The position numbers were made by a program, and so were the translations under genes. A stretch of DNA of 64,000 bases from Rhodobacteraceae bacterium WFHF2C18 (GTDB lineage: Bacteria > Pseudomonadota > Alphaproteobacteria > Rhodobacterales > Rhodobacteraceae), in contig NHTQ01000002.1 in NCBI GenBank assembly GCA_002166865.1, positions 496,001-560,000 on the forward strand. The letters run 5' to 3'. Within the stretch, counting starts at the first letter, position 1. Each line of letters begins with the position of its first letter. This document shows positions 29,934-43,336 of the stretch, piece after piece. A model generated the notes under the pieces. That model was given only the letters and a program-made list of their open reading frames with translations, had not been told where the DNA came from and did no database searches.

Positions 29934-30640
29934 GTGTCCTTCTCCAGAACGCTGCTCAAAGGGATCAGATGCGTGCCCTGAGCATCGCGCAGCAGCATGC
30001 CGAACCGCTCGTCCACGCCCAGGAAGGTGCCGGTCAGGCCATCGCGGCTGACATGCTCGCCCAGGCCGTGGGCCAGCCCGCGCCATTCGCGGTGCAGGGC
30101 CCGGCCGCCGTCCTCCTCCCAGCGGGTGATCCAGACCAGGGTGTGCCGCGCCCAGCTTTCCAGCAGCGCGAGGGAATCGAGGTCGGCGCAGCCCTCCTCG
30201 TACAGCGCGGTCTGGTCCGGGGCATCGCCGGGACGGCCGGAAACCGCCATCAGCGGCACGTCAAGCCCCACCACCAGCCAGCCGGGCAGGGCCGCGGGAT
30301 CCTCCGTGCCGGCCATGACCCGCAGGCGTCCGCATCTGGCCGCGTTCACGCGGATACCCCCGTCCCATTCCAGGTGAACCGCCAGTTCCGGCGGGCCGAG
30401 CGCACCAAGGGCGTTCTGGAACCCCACGGCGCAGGCCGGCAGCATGGTCATGGCCTCCTCCAGCGGCACCTCGGGGGCCATCACCAGCGCCGCGGCCAAC
30501 CGGTCGGCCGTGAGGTTGTGCACCACCAGCCCCGCGTCGCAGCCAAGCGCGGCCATGGCGCAGGCCTTCTCGAAAGGATCGATGCCCGCGTCCACCGCAT
30601 GACCCGACATCAGCGGCGGGAAGGTGGGGGCGGCGCTCAT
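29930..30640 (-). CDS. Biotin/lipoate-protein ligase family protein
   Basis: A 236-residue protein resembling the BPL/LplA fold with a DUF4444-like C-terminal domain. Recognisable parts are LTADRLAAALVMAPEVPLEEAM, the GFQNALGALGPPELAVHLEWDG segment and the C-terminal LTGTFLGVDERFGMLLRD. The lysine and GRG-type loop of a true ligase are not obvious, so it may not activate biotin or lipoate. It overlaps both neighbours by four bases. A role in cofactor or formate dehydrogenase maturation is inferred from context. Confidence 0.7.
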   Translation of the reverse strand: MSAAPTFPPLMSGHAVDAGIDPFEKACAMAALGCDAGLVVHNLTADRLAAALVMAPEVPLEEAMTMLPACAVGFQNALGALGPPELAVHLEWDGGIRVNAARCGRLRVMAGTEDPAALPGWLVVGLDVPLMAVSGRPGDAPDQTALYEEGCADLDSLALLESWARHTLVWITRWEEDGGRALHREWRGLAHGLGEHVSRDGLTGTFLGVDERFGMLLRDAQGTHLIPLSSVLEKDT

Positions 30641-31707
30641 GCCACCCCCTGCGTCACCAGGGCCTGCGCGATCTCGTGAAAGGCCCGGGCCTGCGCCGAT
30701 TCGGGCTTGGACACCGCGATCGGCGCGCCGCCGTCCGAGGCGACGCGGATATCCAGGTGCAACGGGATCTCGCCCAGCAGCGGCACGCCCATCGTCTCGC
30801 ATTCCGCGGCCACGCCCCCGTGCCCGAAGACGTGCTCCTCGTGTCCGCACGCGCTGCAGATATGGGTCGACATGTTCTCGATCATGCCCAGAACGGGCAC
30901 CTTGAGCTGGGTGAACATGTCCACCCCCTTGCGCGCGTCCAGAAGCGCCACGTCCTGCGGGGTGGAGACGATGATCGCCCCGTCCACCACCGCCTTCTGG
31001 CACAGGGTCATCTGGACATCGCCGGTGCCCGGCGGCAGGTCCACCAGAAGCACGTCCAGCGCGCCCCACTGGACCTGGCCCAGCATCTGCTGAAGCGCCC
31101 CCATCAGCATCGGCCCGCGCCAGACAACGGCTTGTCCCTCGTTGGTCATCAAGCCGATGGACATCATCGTGACCCCGTGGTTGCGCAGGGGCAGGATGGT
31201 CTTGCCGTCGGGGCTGGCCGGGCGGCCCGAGACGCCCAGCATCCGCGGCTGGCTCGGCCCGTAGACATCGGCGTCGAGCAGGCCCACCCGGCGGCCCTGC
31301 GCGGCCAGCGCGCAGGCCAGATTGGCCGAGACGGTCGATTTGCCCACGCCCCCCTTGCCAGAGGCGACGGCGATGATATGCGCCACGCCCGGGACCCGTT
31401 CGGGGCCCTGCGGCTCTGCCCGGCGTTGCGGTTGCAGGTCGGGGGGCGCCTTTTCCTGGTGTCCGGTGAGCACGGCCGACACCTCCGCGACCCCGTCCAG
31501 CGCCTCGACCGCGGCCTGGGCGCGCTGACGCACCGGCTCGTAGGCCTCGGCGCGCTTGGGGTCGATTTCCAGCACGAAGCGCACCGTGCCGCCTTCTATT
31601 GTCAGCGCCCGCGTCACCCCGGCCGTGACGACGTCCTGGCCGCTGACGGGATCGTCGATCTGCTTCAGGGTCTCCAGGACCGCCTCGCGCGAAACAGCCA
31701 CGTTCAC
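30637..31707 (-). CDS. mrp: Mrp/NBP35-family P-loop Fe-S carrier ATPase
   Basis: A 356-residue cytoplasmic ATPase thought to carry and insert [4Fe-4S] clusters. An N-terminal MIP18-like domain (residues 1-85) precedes the deviant Walker A motif SGKGGVGKST near residue 117. Walker B lies in LLVDLPPGTGDVQ. A C-x2-C cluster ligand pair (ICSACG) sits near residue 283. Its neighbours encode or mature a formate dehydrogenase rich in Fe-S clusters, which fits. Confidence 0.93.
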   Translation of the reverse strand: MNVAVSREAVLETLKQIDDPVSGQDVVTAGVTRALTIEGGTVRFVLEIDPKRAEAYEPVRQRAQAAVEALDGVAEVSAVLTGHQEKAPPDLQPQRRAEPQGPERVPGVAHIIAVASGKGGVGKSTVSANLACALAAQGRRVGLLDADVYGPSQPRMLGVSGRPASPDGKTILPLRNHGVTMMSIGLMTNEGQAVVWRGPMLMGALQQMLGQVQWGALDVLLVDLPPGTGDVQMTLCQKAVVDGAIIVSTPQDVALLDARKGVDMFTQLKVPVLGMIENMSTHICSACGHEEHVFGHGGVAAECETMGVPLLGEIPLHLDIRVASDGGAPIAVSKPESAQARAFHEIAQALVTQGVA

Positions 31708-31907
31708 TCCTGCGCCTTGATCGTGCCGGTGACGACATGCTCGACGTCCAGACCCTCGACGGTCAGCACCACCTTGGCCGGAAACTCCTTGCCCTCGATG
31801 TCGCCGGCCTCGCGCAGCGCCTCTTCGATGGCCTGTTGCGAGGTCACGCCGACCTGCTTGAGGAACTTGCGCATCGACATGTTGAAGTCGCTGATATCGT
31901 CGTTCAT
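31704..31907 (-). CDS. DUF6494 family small protein
   Basis: A 67-residue acidic soluble protein that matches, from memory, the DUF6494 family (MNDDISDFNMSMRKFLKQVG, then AIEEALREAGDIEGKEFPAK). The function is unknown. It starts the four-gene minus-strand set and overlaps mrp by four bases. The first gene on the other strand begins 61 bases away, so the short gap may hold divergent promoters. Confidence 0.8.
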   Translation of the reverse strand: MNDDISDFNMSMRKFLKQVGVTSQQAIEEALREAGDIEGKEFPAKVVLTVEGLDVEHVVTGTIKAQE

Positions 31908-31967: not shown

Positions 31968-32744
31968 ATGCGTTGCGCCCTGACATGGTTCGCGGCGCGG
32001 GTGGCGCTGCCCGCCTGTGCCGCCATCTTGATCCTGCTGCCGCTGGCGGCCGGCGCCGCCGAGGGCTTCCGCCTGGCCGTGCCCGCGGCCCTGGGCGACA
32101 GCGGGCTTCTCGACTACATCCTGCCGCGCTTCTCGCTCAAGACGCGGACCTCGGTCGCGCGCGTGGCCCCCGGCGACGCGGCCGAGGTGACATTCACGGC
32201 GGGTGGGCCGGGCCAGCCCGTCTTCACCGGCCCCGACGCCACCTGGCACATGCGGGTGCGCAACCCCGAGCACCTCGGCGCGGCCCGCTTCGCCGAGTGG
32301 CTGACCTCCGAGATCGGGCAGCGCACGGTCGCCAGCTACGAGGTGGACGGCAGCACCCCCTTCACCCCGCCCCGGGCGGACGCCAAGGCCGAGGCTGCCA
32401 TCACCTTCGAGGGCGACGCGCGCGCCGGGCGCAAGCTGTCGGTCGAACACTGCGGGCGCTGTCACGTGGTCCGGCAGGATCGCCGCTTCGGCGACATCGG
32501 CTCGACGCCGTCCTTTTTCGTGCTGCGCAGCCTGTCCAACTGGCACGAGCGTTTCCAGACCTTCTATGCCCGCAACCCGCATCCGGCCTTTACGCAGATC
32601 GACGGCGTGACCGACCCTTTTCCCGTCGATCGGCCCTCGCCCATCATACCGGTCGAGCTCAGCATCGAGGACATGCAGGCGCTCCTGGCCTATGTCTCGA
32701 CCCTCCAGCCCGCCGATCTCGGAGCGCCGCTTCAGCATCAGTGA
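31968..32744 (+). CDS. Cytochrome c with tungstate-binding-protein-like N-terminus
   Basis: A 258-residue protein with a Sec signal (ending AAGA, about residue 30) and one heme-binding motif CGRCH at residues 162-166, with a Met-containing C-terminal segment. Residues about 38-70 (ALGDSGLLDYILPRFSLKTR) and 105-135 (FAEWLTSEIGQRTVASYEVD, then PFTP) look like the first and last parts of TupA-type tungstate/molybdate binding proteins with the middle missing. It ends 7 bases inside the convergent polyferredoxin gene. Its place beside formate dehydrogenase suggests a periplasmic electron acceptor or a link to metal supply. Confidence 0.72.
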   Translation: MRCALTWFAARVALPACAAILILLPLAAGAAEGFRLAVPAALGDSGLLDYILPRFSLKTRTSVARVAPGDAAEVTFTAGGPGQPVFTGPDATWHMRVRNPEHLGAARFAEWLTSEIGQRTVASYEVDGSTPFTPPRADAKAEAAITFEGDARAGRKLSVEHCGRCHVVRQDRRFGDIGSTPSFFVLRSLSNWHERFQTFYARNPHPAFTQIDGVTDPFPVDRPSPIIPVELSIEDMQALLAYVSTLQPADLGAPLQHQ

Positions 32745-34696
32745 TCCCGGCGCTTGCTGAAATAATCGTCGCTCGTGCGAACCCGGGGCGGGTCGCCGGC
32801 GGCGAAGGGGTTGTCCTGCGAGTGGTACTGCGCGTTCACCCGGCAATCGTCGCACATCTGGATCATGCGGATCGCCTCGGGGTTCTGGAACATGGCGTGC
32901 TTGTTCGCCAGTTGCTCGGTGATCCGTTCGACGGTGGATTTCACGCCGAACAGCGCGCCGCATTCCACGCAGGCAAAGGGTTCCTCTTCGTTCAGGACAA
33001 CCTGGCTCAGCGCCGCATCGGTGAGGTTGAAGCGCGGCGCGTAGGTGATGGCGTCCTCGGGGCAGACGTTGGCGCAGAGCCCGCATTGCAGGCAGGCGTC
33101 CTCCTGGAAGCGCAGTTGCGGCATGTCCGGGTTGTCCAGCAGCGCCCCCGATGGGCACAGCGATACGCAGGACAGGCACAGCGTGCAGGCATCGGTGTCC
33201 ACCACCACCGCGCCATAGGGCGCGTCCTCGGGCAGGTCCAGCACCTCCGCACCGGGCGCCAGCGCCTTCGCGGCCAGTCGCGCCACCTGGCGGCGGTTGC
33301 CCATGGGCAGCACGGGCTCCTCCACCGGGGCGGGCAGGGCGGCGGGATCATACAGCGCATCGCAAAGCGCGTCCGGGTCGCGCAGGTCCAGCACGCTGAT
33401 GCGGGCATCGCCGGCGATGGCCCGGGCCAAGGGCAGTTCCCGGTCCAGCGCGTCGCGCTCGGTCGCGGGCGACAGAAGCAGCGTTACATCGGCAAACCCC
33501 GAGGCCAGCGCCGCCAGCATCTCCGCATGGCCGAAGCCCGACAGAACCGGCACCTCCAGCGGGATCACGTCCGCCGGGAGCCCGCGGGCGTGCCGCGCGG
33601 CGAGCGAGATCAGCGCGCGCCCCTCGTCCCGGTCGCAGACCAGCAGGCGCGGCGCGGTGCCCCCCGCCTTGCGGTAGGTCGCGGCCAGCGTGTGGATGCG
33701 TCGGAACGTCAGGTCCGGCGGCGGGGCGTCGTAGGTGACGGCGCCCGAGGGGCAGCGCGCCGCGCAGGCCCCGCAGCCGGCGCAGATCATCGGGTCGATA
33801 TTCACGTGATCGCCGTCGGGTGTGATCGCGCCGGTCGGGCAGAGGTCCAGGCACTTGGTGCAGCCGGTCTGCCCCGCGCGGGAATGGGCGCAGATAAGCG
33901 GTTCCAGCGCAACGTAGAGCGGTTTCTCGAAGGTGCCCACAAGCTGGCTGGCCTCCAACACCGCGTCACCCACGGCCACCGGGCTGCCGGGGTCGACGCG
34001 CAAATAGCCCTCGCGCTTCTGGGGGGCGGGAAACAGCGGGGTTCCGCCCGACAGGTCCAGGATCACGTCGCAGTCCGTGCGACCCCCGTCGCGCGGCGTG
34101 GTCCATTCCAGGGGGCCGCGACCGGCCGGTGCGACCTGTTGCAGCGCGTCGATCTCGACCTCGAATTGGCCGAGGGCCCCGCCGGCACGCTTCAGCCGGC
34201 CCCGGATCGCGTCGAAGCTGCGCTCGTCCGGCGGGTCGCTGTCGTCCGTCAGCAGCACGGTGACGCTCAGCATCCCGCTCAGCCGGCGGGCGGCGGGCAG
34301 GGCCACGTCGGCGCGGCCGATGATCAGGCACAGCCCCTCGCTGGTCACGTCCAGGGCCTTTTCCGGGGGGGCGAGCAGGGTGGCCTCGGCCATCAGCGCG
34401 GCCATCTTCGGGCCCTTGGGGCAAGGATCGTCCGACCAACCGGCGCGGTCGCGCAGATCGGCCAGGGCCGGGTCGGGCACCCCGGCCTCGGCAGCCAGTT
34501 CCCGGAAAACGCGGGCTTCCTGCTGGCAGCAGATCACCGCCTCCTCGTCGGCCACCGCCTCGGCGGCCTTGTCCAGTTGCGTGGTGCACAGGCCGGTGTG
34601 AACCTCCGAGCACGCCAGGCCGGTGGCCGCTTCCAGCGCGGCGGTGTCTATCTGCTGCGAGCCTGCGCAGTCACATAAAATCAATCGCTTGGGCAT
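32738..34696 (-). CDS. Large polyferredoxin-type 4Fe-4S protein
   Basis: A 652-residue soluble protein with two pairs of [4Fe-4S] ferredoxin motifs: CTKCLDLCPTGAI with CAGCGACAARCPSGAV near residues 280-325, and CTLCLSCVSLCPSGAL with CLQCGLCANVCPEDA near 510-560. Additional cysteine pairs are at the N-terminus (LCDCAG) and C-terminus (CVECG, CDDC), where they could bind another cluster or zinc. The start at 34696 gives MPKRLILCDC. In Rhodobacteraceae such proteins neighbour formate dehydrogenase; it may carry electrons or act in enzyme maturation. Confidence 0.82.
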   Translation of the reverse strand: MPKRLILCDCAGSQQIDTAALEAATGLACSEVHTGLCTTQLDKAAEAVADEEAVICCQQEARVFRELAAEAGVPDPALADLRDRAGWSDDPCPKGPKMAALMAEATLLAPPEKALDVTSEGLCLIIGRADVALPAARRLSGMLSVTVLLTDDSDPPDERSFDAIRGRLKRAGGALGQFEVEIDALQQVAPAGRGPLEWTTPRDGGRTDCDVILDLSGGTPLFPAPQKREGYLRVDPGSPVAVGDAVLEASQLVGTFEKPLYVALEPLICAHSRAGQTGCTKCLDLCPTGAITPDGDHVNIDPMICAGCGACAARCPSGAVTYDAPPPDLTFRRIHTLAATYRKAGGTAPRLLVCDRDEGRALISLAARHARGLPADVIPLEVPVLSGFGHAEMLAALASGFADVTLLLSPATERDALDRELPLARAIAGDARISVLDLRDPDALCDALYDPAALPAPVEEPVLPMGNRRQVARLAAKALAPGAEVLDLPEDAPYGAVVVDTDACTLCLSCVSLCPSGALLDNPDMPQLRFQEDACLQCGLCANVCPEDAITYAPRFNLTDAALSQVVLNEEEPFACVECGALFGVKSTVERITEQLANKHAMFQNPEAIRMIQMCDDCRVNAQYHSQDNPFAAGDPPRVRTSDDYFSKRRDH

Positions 34697-35020
34697 GGGT
34701 TCCCCGTCCTTGGCGTGCGCGGTTCGGCGGTCCTGCGCATCGTGATCTGGGTGAGAGTAGGCACGATTCGGACCCCTCGTAAACATGAAACGGCCCCCGC
34801 GAACCTGAGCGATTCTCTTTGGTTCCGCCACGGTTGCAGGCCGTGGTGCGCTGTCTTCGACCGATCCGGGAAAAGGCCTGCGATACGCTGCCAGCGGTCA
34901 GCGTTTCGGGCACCGAATCGCCGGATCTTTCCAGAATGTAGACCATGGAATGCAGATTTTACTTTGTTTGGTTCGAAAAATGAACCAATCTGGGGGAACA
35001 GGGAGAGAGGCAACGCGCAA
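34697..35020. promoter_or_regulatory. Divergent regulatory region of the formate dehydrogenase operon
   Basis: A 324-base gap between the divergent polyferredoxin gene and DUF3305. It holds no gene but several inverted repeats: GAACC-N15-GGTTC at 34801-34825, CCACGG-N7-CCGTGG at 34828-34846, and TTGGTTC-N7-GAACCAA at 34968-34988. The first and last share the GGTTC/GAACC half-site, as expected for one dimeric regulator binding twice. No confident -10/-35 was found. Confidence 0.45.
34968..34988. promoter_or_regulatory. Candidate operator upstream of the fdh operon
   Basis: TTGGTTC and GAACCAA are perfect inverted arms around a 7-base A-rich spacer, 33 bases before the DUF3305 start. The TTTGGTTC half also occurs at 34818-34825. 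A LysR- or GntR-like dimer is one possible ligand; no such regulator gene is in the immediate neighbourhood. Confidence 0.45.
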
Positions 35021-35599: not shown

Positions 35600-36192
35600 G
35601 CACCGGCAGTGACTTCTGGACCCGTCGCCGCGCGAAGGTGCAGCAAGAGGCCGAGGCCGAAGCCCGCGCCGCCGCGGATCGCGCGCGCGCCGCGCAGGAG
35701 GCCGCGCAGGCCGAGAAGAGCGATGCCGAGCTCCTCGATGACCTGGATCTGCCGGATCCCGACACGCTGGAGGCGGGCGACGATTTCACCGCCTTCATGG
35801 CCCGGGCCGTGCCCGAGCGCCTGCGCCGGCGCGCGCTGCGCCGGCTGTGGCTGACCAACCCGGCGCTGGCCAACCTCGACGGGCTGCTGGACTACGGCGA
35901 GGATTTCACGGATGCCGCCACGGTGATCGACAACCTCCAGACGGCCTACCAGGTCGGCCGCGGCATGCTGCGCGACGCCGCGCCCGAGGACCTCGCGCCG
36001 GACACCCCCGAGGAGGCCGCGCCCCCCGCCGAGGCGCCGGATCCCGGCCCCGCGCCCGAAGCGGCCGTGGCGCATTCCGACACGCCCGCACCGGCCCCGG
36101 CCGAGGGCTTGCCACAGGACGACGCGCCGCCCGAGACCCCCGTTCCGCGCCGCCGGATGCATTTCACCTTCGACGGGCAGGAGACGGCATGA
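35596..36192 (+). CDS. DUF3306 domain protein of the formate dehydrogenase operon
   Basis: A 198-residue protein with the DUF3306 layout. It has the N-terminal DFWTRRRAKV and a charged Ala/Glu-rich coiled coil (residues 15-45). The conserved core is DDFTAFMARAVPERLRRRALRRLW, NPALANLDGLLDYGEDFTD. The tail is Pro/Ala rich and ends RRRMHFTFDGQETA. It always accompanies DUF3305 in the loci I know. It overlaps both neighbours by four bases, so the accessory genes are translationally coupled. Confidence 0.85.
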   Translation: MSTGSDFWTRRRAKVQQEAEAEARAAADRARAAQEAAQAEKSDAELLDDLDLPDPDTLEAGDDFTAFMARAVPERLRRRALRRLWLTNPALANLDGLLDYGEDFTDAATVIDNLQTAYQVGRGMLRDAAPEDLAPDTPEEAAPPAEAPDPGPAPEAAVAHSDTPAPAPAEGLPQDDAPPETPVPRRRMHFTFDGQETA

Positions 36193-36818
36193 GCACGAGC
36201 GAGGCCCCCATGAGCGATGCGCCGACCGCCCACAGGATCGCCGAGGAGGATCGGCTGCGCGCCGACCTCTACGATTTCCTGGGCCTTCTGCTGGCCCGGC
36301 CCCCGGACCGCGCGCTGCTGGACAAGACCGCCGCGCTTTCGGGGGATGACAGCGAGTTGGGGACCGCCGTTCAGGCCCTGGCGAAGATCGCGGCCCACAC
36401 CGGCCCGCAAGCGGTGGAGCGCGAGTTCAACGCGCTTTTCATCGGGCTGGGCCGGGGCGAGTTGCTGCCCTACGCCAGCTATTACCTGACCGGCTTCCTC
36501 AACGAGAAGCCGCTGGCGGGCTTGCGCCGGGACATGGCCGCGCGTGGCATGACGCGCGCGCCCAACGTCTATGAACCGGAGGACAACATCGCCTCGCTGA
36601 TGGAGATGATGGCCGGCCTCATCACCGGCCGTTTCGCCCGCCCGGCCACGGTGGCCGAGCAGAAGACCTTCTACAACAAGCACATCGGCCCCTGGGCGGG
36701 CCATTTCTTTTCGGATCTGGAGGCCGCGCGGAACTCGGTTCTCTATGCTCCGGTCGGCGCCGTCGGCCGGATCTTCATGGAGATCGAGGCCGAAGGCTTC
36801 CGAATGACCGCGGAGTGA
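36189..36818 (+). CDS. TorD/DmsD-family chaperone for formate dehydrogenase
   Basis: A 209-residue cytoplasmic all-helical chaperone of the TorD family. It has LRADLYDFLGLLLARPP near residue 25, EFNALFIGLGRGELLPYASYYLTG near 80, and PNVYEPEDNIASLMEMMAGL near 120. Such chaperones bind the TAT signal of a molybdoenzyme and hold it for cofactor insertion; fdhA downstream is the evident client. The ATG at 36189 overlaps the previous stop; a second Met seven codons later is an alternative. Confidence 0.9.
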   Translation: MSTSEAPMSDAPTAHRIAEEDRLRADLYDFLGLLLARPPDRALLDKTAALSGDDSELGTAVQALAKIAAHTGPQAVEREFNALFIGLGRGELLPYASYYLTGFLNEKPLAGLRRDMAARGMTRAPNVYEPEDNIASLMEMMAGLITGRFARPATVAEQKTFYNKHIGPWAGHFFSDLEAARNSVLYAPVGAVGRIFMEIEAEGFRMTAE

Positions 36819-37171: not shown

Positions 37172-40069
37172 ATGCTTAGGAAAAAGACCAACGGGGTTGC
37201 GAAACGCCCCCAGCGGACAAGTATCCTGTCCCAGGTCGCCGAGCGTTCGGTTGACCGCCGCGCGTTCCTGCGCGGATCCGGCCTGGCCATCGGCGGCCTG
37301 GCCGCCATCGGCGCCACGGGCGGCACCGTCAGCCGCGCCAACGCCCAGTCCGCCGCCAAGGAGGCGGTCGAAACCCGCAAATCCGTCTGCACGCACTGCT
37401 CGGTCGGCTGCACGGTCGTCGCCGAGGTTCAGGACGGCGTCTGGACCGGCCAGGAACCGGGCTGGGACAGCCCCTTCAACCTGGGCGCCCATTGCGCCAA
37501 GGGCGCCTCGGTGCGCGAGCATGCCCACGGCGAGCGCCGCCTGAAGTATCCGATGAAGAAAGAGGGCGGCGAGTGGAAGCGCATCAGCTGGGAACAGGCG
37601 ATCAACGAGATCGGCGACGGCATGATGCAAATCCGCGATGAAAGTGGTCCGGACAGCGTCTACTGGCTGGGCAGCGCCAAGCACAACAACGAACAGGCCT
37701 ACCTGTTCCGCAAGTTCGCCGCCTATTGGGGCACAAACAACGTGGACCACCAGGCGCGCATCTGCCACTCCACCACCGTCGCGGGGGTTGCCAACACATG
37801 GGGCTACGGCGCCATGACCAACTCCTACAACGACATCCACAACTCCAAGGCGATCTTTCTCATCGGCGGCAACCCGGCCGAGGCGCACCCCGTCTCGCTG
37901 CTGCACGTTCTGAAGGCCAAGGAGCAGAACAACGCGCCGCTTATCGTCTGCGACCCGCGGTTCACGCGCACGGCCGCGCATGCCGATGAATACGTGCGTT
38001 TTCGTCCGGGCACCGATGTCGCGCTGGTCTGGGGCATCCTGTGGCACATCTTCGAGAACGGCTGGGAGGACAAGGAGTTCATCCGCACCCGTGTCTGGGG
38101 GATGGACCAGATCCGCGAAGAGGTCGCCAACTGGACGCCCGAAGAGGTCGAGCGCGTCACCGGGGCGCCCGGCAGCCAGCTGGAGCGCGTGGCGCGGTCG
38201 CTGGTCAACAACCGCCCCGGAACGGTCATCTGGTGCATGGGCGGTACGCAGCACACCAACGGCAACAACAACACCCGCGCCTACTGCATCCTGCAGCTGG
38301 CCCTGGGCAACATGGGCACCTCGGGGGGCGGCACCAACATCTTCCGCGGCCATGACAACGTGCAGGGGGCCACGGACCTGGGCGTGCTCAGCCACACGCT
38401 GCCCGGCTACTACGGGTTGTCCAAGGGCGCCTGGGGCCACTGGGCGCGCGTCTGGGACGAGGACCCCGAGTGGCTGGCCGGCCGGTTCGCGAAGGTCTCC
38501 GGCAAGGACGGCAAGGAAAAGTCGCTCCAGCACCTCAAGGGCATCCCCGTCAGCCGCTGGATCGACGGCGTGCTCGAAGATCCCGGGAACATGGATAACC
38601 CCGAAAAGGTCCGTGCCATGGTGCTGTGGGGTCACGCGCCGAACTCCCAGACCCGCGGACCCGAGATGAAGACGGCGATGGAAAAGCTGGACATGCTGGT
38701 GGTGATCGATCCCTATCCCACCGTCTCGGCCGTGCTGCATGACCGGACCGACGGCGTCTACCTGCTGCCGGCGGCCACGCAGTTCGAAACCCGTGGCTCG
38801 GTCACGGCGTCCAACCGGTCGCTGCAGTGGCGCGAGAAGGTGGTCGATCCCCTGTTCGAGTGCAAGACCGACCAGGAAATCATCGGCCGTTTCGCCAAGA
38901 AGTTCGGCTTCCACGACCGGATGTTCCGCAACATCGCGCTGGAGGACGACGGCGTGACGCCGGACATGGAGGACACGCTGCGCGAGATCAACCGCGGCAT
39001 GTGGACGATCGGCTACACCGGCCAGTCGCCCGAGCGGCTGAAGCTGCACATGGCCAACCAGCACACCTTCGACCGCACCACGCTACAGGCCGTGGGTGGC
39101 CCGGCCGACGGCGACTACTACGGCCTGCCATGGCCAAGCTGGGGCAATCCGGAGATGAAACACCCCGGCACGCCGAACCTCTACGACATGTCCAAGCCCG
39201 TCAGTAAGGGCGGTCTGACCTTCCGCGCCCGCTTCGGTGTGGAACGTGATGGCGACAACCTGCTGGCCGAAGGCGTCTACAGCCAGGGCTCCGAGATCCA
39301 GGATGGCTACCCGGAGTTCACCATGCAGATGCTGATGGACCTGGGCTGGGACAAGGACCTGACCGACGAGGAACGCGCGACCATCGACGCGATCGCAGGG
39401 CCCGACACCAACTGGAAGACCGACCTGTCCGGCGGCATCCAGCGGGTGGCGATCAAGCACGAGTGCGCGCCCTTCGGCAACGCCAAGGCCCGCGCCGTCG
39501 TCTGGACCTTCCCCGACCCGGTGCCGATCCACCGCGAGCCGCTCTATACCAACCGGCGCGACCTGGTGGCCGACTATCCCACCTACGAGGACCGGCACGA
39601 CTATCGCCTGCCGACCCTCTATGCCTCGATTCAGAAACAGGATTTCTCGAAGGACTACCCGATCATCCTGACCTCTGGGCGCCTGGTGGAATACGAGGGC
39701 GGCGGCGACGAGACCCGCTCGAACCCCTGGCTGGCCGAACTCCAGCAGGACATGTTCGTCGAGATCAACCCGCGGGACGCCAACAACCTGGGGCTGCGCG
39801 ACGGCGCGCAGGTCTGGGTCGAGGGCCCCGAGGGCGGCAAGGTCAAGGTCATGGCCATGGTCACCGAGAGGGTGGGCGAGGGCGTCGCCTTCATGCCCTT
39901 CCACTTCGGCGGCCATTTCCAGGGTCAGGACCTGCGGGACAAGTACCCCGAGGGGGCCGACCCGTATGTCCTGGGCGAGTCGTCCAACACCGCGCAGACC
40001 TACGGCTATGACTCGGTCACCCAGATGCAGGAGACCAAGGCCACGCTCTGCAAGATCTCGGCCGCTTAA
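37172..40069 (+). CDS. fdhA: Formate dehydrogenase, catalytic alpha subunit
   Basis: Mo/W-bis-MGD enzyme oxidising formate to CO2 on the periplasmic side, 965 residues. The TAT signal has RRAFLRGSG at residues 29-37. The [4Fe-4S] ligands are Cys 73, 76, 80 and 108 (CTHCSVGC and HCAKG). The metal ligand is a cysteine, not selenocysteine: RICHST with Cys 198-His 199. The C-terminal MGD-binding domain (PIILTSGRLVEYEGGGDETR) is complete. A GAGGAG site precedes the ATG. It is followed 14 bases later by fdhB. Confidence 0.95.
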   Translation: MLRKKTNGVAKRPQRTSILSQVAERSVDRRAFLRGSGLAIGGLAAIGATGGTVSRANAQSAAKEAVETRKSVCTHCSVGCTVVAEVQDGVWTGQEPGWDSPFNLGAHCAKGASVREHAHGERRLKYPMKKEGGEWKRISWEQAINEIGDGMMQIRDESGPDSVYWLGSAKHNNEQAYLFRKFAAYWGTNNVDHQARICHSTTVAGVANTWGYGAMTNSYNDIHNSKAIFLIGGNPAEAHPVSLLHVLKAKEQNNAPLIVCDPRFTRTAAHADEYVRFRPGTDVALVWGILWHIFENGWEDKEFIRTRVWGMDQIREEVANWTPEEVERVTGAPGSQLERVARSLVNNRPGTVIWCMGGTQHTNGNNNTRAYCILQLALGNMGTSGGGTNIFRGHDNVQGATDLGVLSHTLPGYYGLSKGAWGHWARVWDEDPEWLAGRFAKVSGKDGKEKSLQHLKGIPVSRWIDGVLEDPGNMDNPEKVRAMVLWGHAPNSQTRGPEMKTAMEKLDMLVVIDPYPTVSAVLHDRTDGVYLLPAATQFETRGSVTASNRSLQWREKVVDPLFECKTDQEIIGRFAKKFGFHDRMFRNIALEDDGVTPDMEDTLREINRGMWTIGYTGQSPERLKLHMANQHTFDRTTLQAVGGPADGDYYGLPWPSWGNPEMKHPGTPNLYDMSKPVSKGGLTFRARFGVERDGDNLLAEGVYSQGSEIQDGYPEFTMQMLMDLGWDKDLTDEERATIDAIAGPDTNWKTDLSGGIQRVAIKHECAPFGNAKARAVVWTFPDPVPIHREPLYTNRRDLVADYPTYEDRHDYRLPTLYASIQKQDFSKDYPIILTSGRLVEYEGGGDETRSNPWLAELQQDMFVEINPRDANNLGLRDGAQVWVEGPEGGKVKVMAMVTERVGEGVAFMPFHFGGHFQGQDLRDKYPEGADPYVLGESSNTAQTYGYDSVTQMQETKATLCKISAA

Positions 40070-40083
40070 GGGAGGACTATCAA

Positions 40084-40716
40084 ATGGCAACCCAGAAAGA
40101 ACAACAGGGCGCTCTCGGCGGTCGCGCACGGGCCAAGTTCCTGTGCGACGCGGAACGCTGCATCGAATGCAACGCCTGCGTGACCGCCTGCAAGAACGAG
40201 CACGAGGTGCCCTGGGGCATCAACCGCCGCCGCGTGGTGACGATCGAGGATGGCAAGCCGGGCGAGCGCTCGATCTCGGTCGCCTGCATGCACTGCTCGG
40301 ACGCGCCGTGCATGGCCGTCTGCCCGGTTGACTGCTTCTACCAGACCGCCGATGGCGTGGTCCTGCACTCCAAGGACCTCTGCATCGGCTGCGGCTACTG
40401 CTTCTATGCCTGCCCCTTCGGCGCGCCGCAGTATCCGCAGGCGGGCAACTTCGGCTCGCGCGGCAAGATGGACAAGTGCACCTTCTGCGCCGGCGGCCCC
40501 GAGGAGAACCACTCCAACGCGGAGTTCTCCAAGTACGGGGCCAACCGCATCGCCGAGGGCAAGCTGCCCATCTGCGCCGAAATGTGCTCGACCAAGGCGC
40601 TTCTGGCCGGGGACGGTGACGTCGTCTCCGCGATCTACCGCGAGCGCGTGGTGGCGCGTGGCTTCGGCACCGGTGCCTGGGGGTGGGGGACCGCCTACCA
40701 GCAAAAGGGCCAGTAG
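40084..40716 (+). CDS. fdhB: Formate dehydrogenase iron-sulfur beta subunit
   Basis: A 210-residue ferredoxin subunit that carries electrons from FdhA to the cytochrome b subunit. Four cysteine clusters are seen: CIECNACVTACKNEH, CMHCSDAPCMAVCPVDC, CIGCGYCFYACPFGAPQ, and the fourth made of CTFCAGG with MCSTKAL. There is no C-terminal membrane helix as in the enterobacterial FdnH, and no signal peptide, so it is probably exported with FdhA by hitch-hiking. Confidence 0.94.
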   Translation: MATQKEQQGALGGRARAKFLCDAERCIECNACVTACKNEHEVPWGINRRRVVTIEDGKPGERSISVACMHCSDAPCMAVCPVDCFYQTADGVVLHSKDLCIGCGYCFYACPFGAPQYPQAGNFGSRGKMDKCTFCAGGPEENHSNAEFSKYGANRIAEGKLPICAEMCSTKALLAGDGDVVSAIYRERVVARGFGTGAWGWGTAYQQKGQ

Positions 40717-40813: not shown

Positions 40814-42028
40814 ATGGCACGTCTTCTGCTGACCCTGGTCCTGACGCTTTTCCTGTCTCTGCCGGCCGCCGCGCAAGAGGCGCCGCAGGCCCCCGAGCCG
40901 GATCGCTCGGCCACGGGCGGGGCCCCGACGCTGGAGGATATCCTGCGCCGCCAGCGCGGCGAGGAGGTCAGCAACGACTATCGCCGCGATTCCACGACCG
41001 ATGCCCAGACGACCCCGCAGGCCGCCCCGGCACTGGGGCCACTTGGGGGCGCATCCGATTCGGAGGTCTGGCGCGACCTGCGCTTCAACCAGGCCGACGT
41101 CAAGGTTTCCAGCCGCGGTCCCGCCGACCGGGTGCTGGTGCAGGACGCCGGCATGTGGTGGCTGCAGCTCCGCCAGGGACCGCTGGCCACCTACGGCGGG
41201 TGGCTGCTGCTGGCCACGTTGGGGCTGCTGGCCCTGTTCTTGCTCCTGCGCGGGCGTATCCGCATAGACGGGCAGAAGACCGGCCGCACGGTCACGCGCT
41301 TCCAGCCGGTGGAACGCTTCGCCCACTGGCTGATGGCCGGCTCCTTCATCCTGCTGGCGCTCACCGGGCTCATCACCCTGTTCGGGCGGCCGGGGCTGAT
41401 CCCGGTGATGGGCAAGGAGGCCTACGCCACCCTCGCGCAAGGATCCAAGTGGGTGCACAACAACGTCGCCTGGGCCTTCATGCTGGGCCTGGTCATGGCC
41501 TTCGTGCTCTGGGTGGTGCACAACATCCCCGACAAGACAGACCTCAAGTGGCTGGCGCAAGGCGGCGGGCTGTTTTCCAAGGGCAAGCATCCCCCGGCCA
41601 AGAAGTTCAACGCCGGGCAGAAGATCATCTTCTGGCTGGTTGTCCTGCTGGGCGTGTCGGTCTCGGCCTCGGGGCTTTCGCTGCTGTTTCCCTTCGAACT
41701 ACCCATGTTCGCCAAGACCTTCGCGGCGATCAACGAAACCGGTCTGCCACAGGCCCTTGGCTACGGCGCGCTTCCCGAACAGCTCGCCCCGCACGAGGAA
41801 ATGCAATATGCCCAGCTCTGGCATGCCATCGTGGCCTTCGTGATGATGGCCGTGATCCTCGCGCATATCTACTTGGGCTCCATCGGGATGGAGGGCGCCT
41901 TCGACGCCATGGGCTCCGGCGAAGTGGAAGAGCAGTGGGCCCGGGAACACCACAGCCTCTGGCTGGAAAAGCTGCAGGAGGAGGGCGAGGCGCCGCCGCG
42001 CCGCGGCACCGCCAGCCCGGCGGAGTAG
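40814..42028 (+). CDS. fdhC: Formate dehydrogenase gamma subunit, cytochrome b556 type
   Basis: A 404-residue membrane subunit that takes electrons to the quinone pool. There is a signal peptide (MARLLLTLVLTLFLSLPAAA), a periplasmic Pro/Ala-rich region to about residue 125, and then about five membrane helices. Heme-ligand histidines are in ERFAHWLMAGSF, WVHNNVAWAFM and LWHAIVAFVMMAVILAHIYLG. The long periplasmic N-terminal region is typical of this group. The next gene starts on the base after its stop. Confidence 0.92.
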   Translation: MARLLLTLVLTLFLSLPAAAQEAPQAPEPDRSATGGAPTLEDILRRQRGEEVSNDYRRDSTTDAQTTPQAAPALGPLGGASDSEVWRDLRFNQADVKVSSRGPADRVLVQDAGMWWLQLRQGPLATYGGWLLLATLGLLALFLLLRGRIRIDGQKTGRTVTRFQPVERFAHWLMAGSFILLALTGLITLFGRPGLIPVMGKEAYATLAQGSKWVHNNVAWAFMLGLVMAFVLWVVHNIPDKTDLKWLAQGGGLFSKGKHPPAKKFNAGQKIIFWLVVLLGVSVSASGLSLLFPFELPMFAKTFAAINETGLPQALGYGALPEQLAPHEEMQYAQLWHAIVAFVMMAVILAHIYLGSIGMEGAFDAMGSGEVEEQWAREHHSLWLEKLQEEGEAPPRRGTASPAE

Positions 42029-43336
42029 ATGCGCGCGCTGGCGGTGGCGATCCTGTCCCTGTCCCTGGCCGCCAGCGCGGCGGCCGAGGAAGGTTTCACC
42101 ACGCTCAAGGGTCATGGCGGGCCCGTCATGGGCCTGGACGTGGACCCCGGAACGGGGCGGGTGGCCAGCGCCAGTTTCGACAACTCGGTGGGCCTTTGGC
42201 AGGGTCGCGATCCGCGCTGGCTTGAAGGCCACCGCGCCGCTGTCAATGCCGTGCGCTTCCTGCCGGGCGGCGGGCTGGCCTCGGCGGGGGACGACTTCGC
42301 GGTGATCCTCTGGCAGCTCGGCACCGGTGCCGCGACCCGGCTGGAGGGGCATCGCGGCAAGGTGGTGGCGCTGGCCGCCGCGCCGGGCGGGGGGCTTCTT
42401 GCCTCGGCCGGCTGGGATGGCCGGATCGGCCTCTGGCCTCTGGACGGCGGGGTTTCCCGGTTTCTCGATGGCCACGCGGTCGCGGTGAACGACGTGGCCT
42501 TCGCCGGCGACGGCCGGCGGCTTTTTTCCGCATCCGCCGACGGGACGATCCGGGTCTGGACCCTTGCCGAGGGGCAGAGCCGCGTGCTGGTCGACCAGGG
42601 GTTCGGCGTCAACCGGATCGTTCTGGGGCCGGACGATGCCTGGCTGGCCTACGGCGCGGTGGATGGGGCCACCCGCATCGTGGATCCGCGCGACGGCACG
42701 CTGCGCGCCGATTTCTCCCTCGACCGCCGGCCGATCCTGGCGCTGGCCCATCACGGCGGGGCAGGGCGGCTGGCCGTCGGCGACGGGCATGGCTACATCA
42801 TGGTGATCGACACGCGCACCTGGAATATCGCCCGCGACTTCCGCGCCATGCGCGACGGGCCTGTCTGGGCCCTGGCCTTCTCGCCGGACGGCACGCGCAT
42901 CCATGCGGGGGGGCTGCAAGACGTGGTCTATTCCTGGCCGCTTGCGCTGCTCGACAGCTTCGACCCGGCCGGCGGGCAGAAGCGCAGTTTCCTGCGCGAC
43001 CCTGCGGAGATGCCGAACGGCGAGCGGCAGTTCATGCGCAAGTGCTCGATCTGCCACGCGCTGACCCCGCCGCCGTCGCGCAAGGCCGGTCCGACCTTGC
43101 ACGGAATCTTCGGACGCCGCGCCGGCACCGTGCCCGGCTACGGCTATTCGTCCCGGCTTGCGGGGTCCGACATCGTCTGGACCGCTGAAACGATCGACGC
43201 GCTCTTCGCTGAGGGCCCGGACCACTATATCCCGGGGTCCAAGATGCCCATGCAGCGCATCACCGACCCGCGCGACCGGCAGGACCTGATCGGCTTCCTG
43301 CGTCGGGCGGCGTCGGAAAAGGAGGGGAAGGAATGA
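42029..43336 (+). CDS. Periplasmic WD40 beta-propeller / cytochrome c fusion
   Basis: A 435-residue protein with a Sec signal (residues 1-19). Residues 20-305 form WD40-like repeats (TLKGHGGPVMGLD, LEGHRAAVNAVRF, LEGHRGKVVALA, LDGHAVAVNDVAF). The class I cytochrome c domain has CSICH at residues 339-343 and the Met ligand in SKMPMQR. It begins directly after fdhC, so it is co-expressed with formate dehydrogenase and probably serves as a periplasmic electron carrier or scaffold. The domain pairing is unusual. Confidence 0.85.
   Translation: MRALAVAILSLSLAASAAAEEGFTTLKGHGGPVMGLDVDPGTGRVASASFDNSVGLWQGRDPRWLEGHRAAVNAVRFLPGGGLASAGDDFAVILWQLGTGAATRLEGHRGKVVALAAAPGGGLLASAGWDGRIGLWPLDGGVSRFLDGHAVAVNDVAFAGDGRRLFSASADGTIRVWTLAEGQSRVLVDQGFGVNRIVLGPDDAWLAYGAVDGATRIVDPRDGTLRADFSLDRRPILALAHHGGAGRLAVGDGHGYIMVIDTRTWNIARDFRAMRDGPVWALAFSPDGTRIHAGGLQDVVYSWPLALLDSFDPAGGQKRSFLRDPAEMPNGERQFMRKCSICHALTPPPSRKAGPTLHGIFGRRAGTVPGYGYSSRLAGSDIVWTAETIDALFAEGPDHYIPGSKMPMQRITDPRDRQDLIGFLRRAASEKEGKE

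Follow-up and report, generated by a model that had tools for sequence, protein, structure and literature searches.

A mono-heme cytochrome c carrying a single lobe of a tungstate-binding protein at a formate dehydrogenase locus of Rhodobacteraceae

The locus and its formate dehydrogenase

The DNA analysed here (the window) is a stretch of 64,000 nucleotides from contig NHTQ01000002.1 of Rhodobacteraceae bacterium WFHF2C18. One of its open reading frames encodes an exported protein in which a signal peptide is followed by a domain of about 105 residues (31-135) and then by a heme domain with one CGRCH site. As stated in a first-pass annotation made from the letters of the DNA, this is the only CxxCH of the 258-residue product. 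The gene and the parts of its product are as follows.

31968-32744, forward strand: open reading frame of the exported 258-residue protein (translation)
31968..32057, forward strand: signal peptide, residues 1-30, with a presumed cleavage site (translation; helix 4-27 in the model)
32058..32372, forward strand: TupA lobe-A domain, residues 31-135, lacking lobe B (hhalign, pLDDT, VIA-align)
32061..32207, forward strand: N-terminal TupA-like segment, strand, helix, strand, DSGLLDYILPRFSLKT (hhalign)
32079..32096, forward strand: place of the TTTS motif of TupA, residues 38-43, motif gone (member alignment)
32124..32144, forward strand: PRFSLKT helix with P53, R54 and K58 (member invariance)
32274..32378, forward strand: C-terminal TupA-like segment, AARFAEWLTSEIGQRTVASYEVDGSTPFTP (hhalign)
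32418..32741, forward strand: mono-heme cytochrome c domain, residues 151-258 (Pfam Cytochrom_C, below cut-off)
32451..32465, forward strand: CGRCH heme attachment site, residues 162-166 (single CxxCH of the protein)
32580..32582, forward strand: His205, candidate second heme ligand replacing the usual Met (from its invariance)

One flank of the fused gene carries genes for a DUF6494 protein, ApbC, a lipoate-ligase-like protein and DUF6505, and the other carries genes for a 4Fe-4S protein, DUF3305, DUF3306, a TorD-like chaperone, a TAT peptide, FdhA, FdhB and a cytochrome b subunit. The following neighbours were placed.

30637..31707, reverse strand: ApbC/Mrp iron-sulfur carrier (Pfam PF10609; ApbC just under the NCBIfam cut-off)
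31704..31907, reverse strand: DUF6494 protein, divergent neighbour (Pfam PF20104)
32738..34831, reverse strand: 4Fe-4S protein, convergent neighbour, whose true start may lie downstream (Pfam Fer4; synteny)
36183..36818, forward strand: TorD-like chaperone (Pfam PF02613; NCBIfam TorD E 1.5e-11, below cut-off)
37172..40069, forward strand: formate dehydrogenase (FDH) alpha subunit FdhA (Pfam; TIGR01591 E 3.5e-142, below cut-off)
40084..40716, forward strand: FdhB iron-sulfur subunit (Pfam Fer4 families)
40814..42028, forward strand: FDH gamma subunit, cytochrome b (Pfam PF01292; TIGR01583 above cut-off)
42029-43336: cytochrome c domain preceded by a WD40 beta-propeller, last in the FDH operon

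The location beside a Mo/W formate dehydrogenase that was noted at first pass is correct, with tungsten the probable metal; the catalytic gene starts at 37172, 4.4 kb downstream of the fused gene. DUF3305 and DUF3306 are described beside FDH operons in the available part of PMC4464133. The WD40-propeller cytochrome c at the end of the operon shares with the fused protein an extra N-terminal domain and the FDH locus, but its extra domain is unrelated.

Co-occurrence with fdhA, which was to be looked for in related genomes, was found at the level of both loci and genomes. Among 80 named loci (the best 80 of 341, with Alphaproteobacteria names such as Roseovarius, Shimia, Ruegeria and Roseibium), 71 show FdhA, and the contigs of the remaining nine end before its place. 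All 25 of the 25 fused loci (L057-L081) of the first two region sets, from Rhodobacteraceae, likewise show it, partly or wholly. Among 198 sampled Rhodobacteraceae genomes, counted with FdhA at E <= 1e-100 and TupA at E <= 1e-20, FdhA is present in 72 of the 74 that carry the fusion; the two others have contigs that break off within the locus. In nearly all loci examined the fused gene is encoded with FDH genes; the one exception is G484 (L234), where it keeps its upstream neighbours with no FDH genes in the next 10 kb, and where FdhA (86%) sits on another contig. In many relatives the match to FdhA breaks in two near residue 745, as if they carried an insertion that is lacking from the FdhA of the window.

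A TupA match is present in all 98 genomes with FdhA versus 40 of the 100 without it, which points to tungsten, and the neighbouring formate dehydrogenase is probably tungsten-dependent. The curated cut-off of the TupA model was reached in 0 of the 198 genomes, and thus the naming of these genes rests on homology, motifs and, in the source genome, upstream ABC ORFs; tupA is there directly preceded by permease-like and ATPase-like ABC ORFs (read by eye). In Methylorubrum, a tupBCA cluster occurs together with W cofactor genes, according to the available part of PMC13197769.

A domain descended from lobe A of TupA, without its metal site

The N-terminal domain of the fused protein is derived from lobe A of a tungstate-binding protein. 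Within the source genome, the sole match of the fused protein other than to itself is to the TupA gene on contig C8, in two separate segments (residues 24-90, 33%, E 0.15; residues 106-135, 47%, E 0.003), although such single-sequence matches to the TupA of the same genome are suggestive only. A first scan with the single sequence as query returned nothing, and family scans with it gave weak matches to TupA (E 0.005), Cytochrom_C (E 0.0056, below the Pfam cut-off) and SBP_bac_8 (E 0.019). Against the TupA family model the fused protein scored 16.2 bits, versus a curated cut-off of 400, and 19 of 48 members matched this model at E <= 0.1. With a profile of the 48 members, hhalign aligned residues 32-90 with TupA 29-77 (score 48.3, E 2.7e-8) and residues 89-142 with TupA 240-275 (score 63.2, E 1.4e-11), such that the two halves of the domain match the two ends of TupA in the same order. 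The top scores in 100 column shuffles per half were far lower (19.9 for the first half and 17.9 for the second), which rules out a chance resemblance. The likeness to the first and last parts of TupA, initially read from one sequence, is thereby placed on a statistical footing.

A lobe-only profile (31 members) was further compared with PDB sequences, and matched 3muq, 5my5, 3cvg, 3lr1 and 3kn3 at E < 0.01. Of these, 5my5 is titled TupA and 3cvg only putative metal binding protein, and the available part of PMC5517513 classes 3lr1, 3muq and 3kn3 as TupA; four of the five are thus TupA by title or by that source. Neither ModA nor PstS is among the eight PDB matches of this profile at E <= 10. 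The choice between the TupA and ModA families, which had been left to profile comparison, falls on TupA, and sequence comparison likewise favours TupA over PstS as the origin of the lobe. The weaker matches of the lobe profile in 40 genomes were paired at both ends of single open frames, in a TupA-like manner; of these, only the ones in G000 and G213 could be assigned to TupA genes, and a few one-segment matches had E > 0.1.

An AlphaFold2 model (81 sequences) had a mean pLDDT of 87.0, with values of 93-97 in ten-residue blocks from residue 31 to 130, and a pTM of 0.56, at which the mutual placement of the lobe and the cytochrome domain is not fixed by the model. VIA-align superposed residues 31..135 of the model on residues 2..249 of TupA 5my5 (Z 15.0, rmsd 1.9, 105 residues), with lower Z for ModA chains (12.3), TupA 3kn3 (11.9), TupA 3lr1 (11.7) and PstS (11.0). 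Foldseek gave no match under E 0.001, its best being 5my5 at 3.8e-3. Since ModA chains score above two TupA chains, the fold identifies the domain as a lobe of a type II binding protein, and it is the sequence that points to TupA. The structure prediction proposed at first pass thus yields a binding-protein lobe for residues 31-135, best matched by TupA 5my5, and no different fold. In D. alaskensis TupA, as described in the available part of PMC5517513, lobe A consists of A2-R76 and Y201-E251 and lobe B of A91-Q200. Lobe A is thus built from both chain ends, so that the fused domain corresponds to a single lobe assembled from the two terminal parts of its parent. Homology is confined to these two terminal lobe-A segments and does not span the whole mature protein, and in place of two lobes with a cleft there is a single lobe of about 105 residues.

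The absence of the middle of the TupA fold, an early observation on this protein, is confirmed by the loss of lobe B and of the RGD[D/N/E]SGT motif, which was found in 0 of 121 fused members versus 21 of 21 TupA sequences. The TTTS motif is likewise missing from all 121 members, including the 48 that were not found by motif scan; TTS is present in 18 of the 21 TupA sequences, and the other three are tblastn pieces beginning past the place of the motif. The likely ligands in D. alaskensis TupA, as far as the available part of PMC5517513 describes them, are R118, T124 and D170, facing the TTTS of lobe A, and all three fall in the deleted lobe B. With both lobe B and TTTS lost, tungstate sensing through the known site would be unlikely. 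Of the two functions first imagined for the domain, a remodelling from oxyanion binding to docking gains from the loss of TTTS and of the lobe-B ligands as regards its first half; docking fits, and would be the second half.

In comparison with TupA (NF041772; 5my5, 3lr1), the fused protein has kept the lobe-A fold, the terminal segments in the same order and export, but it lacks lobe B, TTTS and the anion site, has a new invariant Arg54, and carries a cytochrome. One fused member, L233 (genome G168), has a longer middle with VEAGHG, which resembles the VENGHG of TupA, a stretch that lies outside the portion kept by the other members; it is a single sequence, considered without statistics, and is possibly an intermediate.

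Conservation, heme site and distribution

P53, R54, K58 and W111 are invariant in all 48 members that were not chosen by motif. This count excludes the remaining 73 distinct members, which had been retrieved with a PRF..K pattern; the contig pattern scan used [HYF][ILM][LIA]PRF[SKA][LF]K[TH], with the best 80 of 341 kept. Since this pattern biases the sample, invariance of PRF..K is claimed only for the 48 BLAST-found members. Among 12 TupA sequences readable by pattern, none has Arg at place 54 and six have Lys at place 58; thus K58 is partly ancestral.

The lobe is under purifying selection. Its dN/dS has a median of 0.127 and a maximum of 0.33, and that of the cytochrome a median of 0.075 and a maximum of 0.24, in 91 of 93 pairs, which are related and hence non-independent; two pairs were left out because values were missing or dS fell beyond 0.05-3. 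The gene of the source genome is not a pseudogene, being full length and conserved with low dN/dS.

With a CxxCH, a cytochrome-fold domain and an N-terminal hydrophobic helix, the protein is a c-type cytochrome. Cytochrom_C is matched by 39 of the 48 members at E <= 0.1, and exactly one CxxCH is present in 121 of 121 members. Among the His, Met and Lys residues of the domain, only His166 and His205 are conserved in at least 85% of members, each of them in all 121 (His205 also in 48/48 of those not motif-selected). No Met reaches 85% of the 121 members, and the His/Met pair of Class I is thus not seen. In general small cytochromes the loop that follows the PH/SH motif contains a Met (16 of the 16 aligned, L191-L206), the axial heme ligand of such proteins; a Met directly after PH was seen in 0 of the five fused and 0 of the nine lobe-less rows shown. 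His205 may take the place of this axial Met as a heme ligand, and the heme would have a low potential. Small alphaproteobacterial cytochromes c with a PHxxMP loop share with the fused members the CxxCH, the overall domain and the PH motif, whereas the fused members differ in the absence of Met there, in an STPSF motif and, in most, in a C-terminal ADLGAPL tail.

A match at E <= 1e-5 was obtained in 76 of the 198 sampled Rhodobacteraceae genomes (source genome included), 74 of which have the lobe. In G004 and G054 the match is limited to the cytochrome part, and the lobe of G168 was confirmed separately. In a class-wide sample of 385 genomes, the fused form was found in five of Rhodobacteraceae and two of one other family. 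The full lobe is present in 18 of 24 genomes of the genus of the source genome. Another genome of this genus, G858 (L254), has a shortened frame: the signal peptide and the first helix of the lobe are followed directly by the tail of the cytochrome, and the heme motif is missing. Its FdhA is matched only over residues 619-963, which marks the entire locus as either reduced or poorly assembled and makes it uninformative on dispensability.

The fused gene is not present wherever the enzyme is, being absent from 26 of 98 FdhA genomes. Twenty-three such loci were inspected, of which ten keep both flanks with the gene cleanly missing, the rest being cut, rearranged or distant. The ten clean absences rule out an essential FDH subunit; the fused gene is accessory, and neither a required subunit nor a required acceptor of the enzyme.

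Lobe-less relatives were found in other families. They belong to the same cytochrome subfamily and several lie near FDH genes, but they have no TupA lobe. Of 13 lobe-less loci, three have FdhA in view (L085, L086, L088), four show further genes of the locus instead (L087, L091, L092, L095), and six have none. The related cytochromes of G293, G004 and G054 have no lobe, and thus the cytochrome can persist alone. In the FdhA tree, lobe-less G293 falls inside a supported group of fused rows, as does lobe-less G004 in the cytochrome tree, and these placements suggest that the lobe was lost and the cytochrome kept. In the cytochrome tree (111 columns, bootstrap not settled), the fused members need four changes on the best tree, and a topology that unites all fused rows in one clade is not rejected by the AU test (p 0.36). 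The fused, lobe-less and absent states need 18 changes on the FdhA tree versus a shuffled mean of 22.5, by a quick method and with two long branches; this would fit repeated loss, and gains are also possible.

No full-length TupA joined to a heme was seen in the four TupA-like loci read (L048, L050, L051, L052). L051, in one genome, carries two TupA-like stretches in tandem. Because tupA and cytochrome genes both occur beside such loci, it is plausible that the fusion arose by recombination of the two genes in one neighbourhood.

Proposed role and alternatives

Our leading proposal, put forward tentatively, is that the fused protein is an accessory low-potential redox partner of FDH in which the lobe acts as a docking module. 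The periplasmic mono-heme c-type cytochrome would belong to the periplasmic, probably tungsten-dependent formate dehydrogenase. Its heme, for which a second His is invariant but no Met is conserved, would be of low potential and would take electrons from the enzyme or exchange them with it, along a secondary route next to the membrane cytochrome b subunit. The lobe, presumably no longer able to bind metal, would act as a rigid docking module and keep the cytochrome attached to its partner, for which a subunit of the FDH complex is the likeliest candidate.

It is unlikely that the protein is instead a heme-based sensor of redox state, gas or peroxide, or a protective protein, with the lobe as transducer or scaffold and no role as an electron carrier. 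The want of a conserved Met ligand and the optional nature of the gene would agree with such a function; however, the invariant His205 could occupy the sixth place, no signalling domain is fused to the protein, and the locus is that of a respiratory enzyme.

We also doubt that the lobe is a passive leftover or a folding aid without a partner. The existence of lobe-less relatives, and the positions of G293 and G004 among fused rows, would agree with such a remnant, but lobe dN/dS is at most 0.33 in each of the 91 pairs kept, and the four invariant residues hold throughout the 48 members not motif-chosen.

Similarly improbable is a lobe that still docks on the permease TupB, with the redox state of the cytochrome, or the protein itself, modulating tungstate uptake or competing with TupA. 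A TupA match accompanies the fusion in 74 of 74 genomes, tupA lies within the examined stretch in 27 of the 80 named loci (best 80 of 341), and genes for an ABC permease, an ATPase and a binding protein directly adjoin the fused gene in Sulfitobacter sp. S190. However, FDH explains the co-occurrence with TupA equally well, as TupA is found in every FdhA genome, fusion or not, and the tupA of the source genome is on another contig. A broader version, in which the single lobe is an autonomous adaptor coupling a low-potential bis-His cytochrome either to the tungsten FDH or to the tungstate permease, is very unlikely; if true, it would mean that the reused half of an enzyme's own metal-uptake protein forms a physical link between its metal supply and its electron flow.

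Descent from TupA and the tungsten-linked FDH speak for a metal-supply sensor, the other function imagined at first pass, in which the lobe would bind tungstate or molybdate and gate electron flow, but this is hardly credible with TTTS and RGD[D/N/E]SGT missing in 121 of 121 members and with the likely ligands of D. alaskensis TupA (in the available part of PMC5517513) in the deleted lobe B, that is, with the known tungstate-site residues gone.

This formate dehydrogenase is common in marine Rhodobacterales, and the accessory redox partner favoured here would be a redox component of it that has apparently escaped study. The fusion offers a clear case in which one lobe of a two-lobed binding protein has been kept by selection after removal of the ligand site, and in which the donor family, through tungstate uptake, serves the enzyme encoded beside the recipient cytochrome. 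As a defined protein with conserved R54 and K58, it also provides a system for how binding-protein lobes are reused. No description of the fusion was found in the literature searched, most subscription journals lying outside the reach of the search, and PADLOC gave no match. In five plasmid records, the gene is named 'c-type cytochrome' once and 'hypothetical protein' four times.
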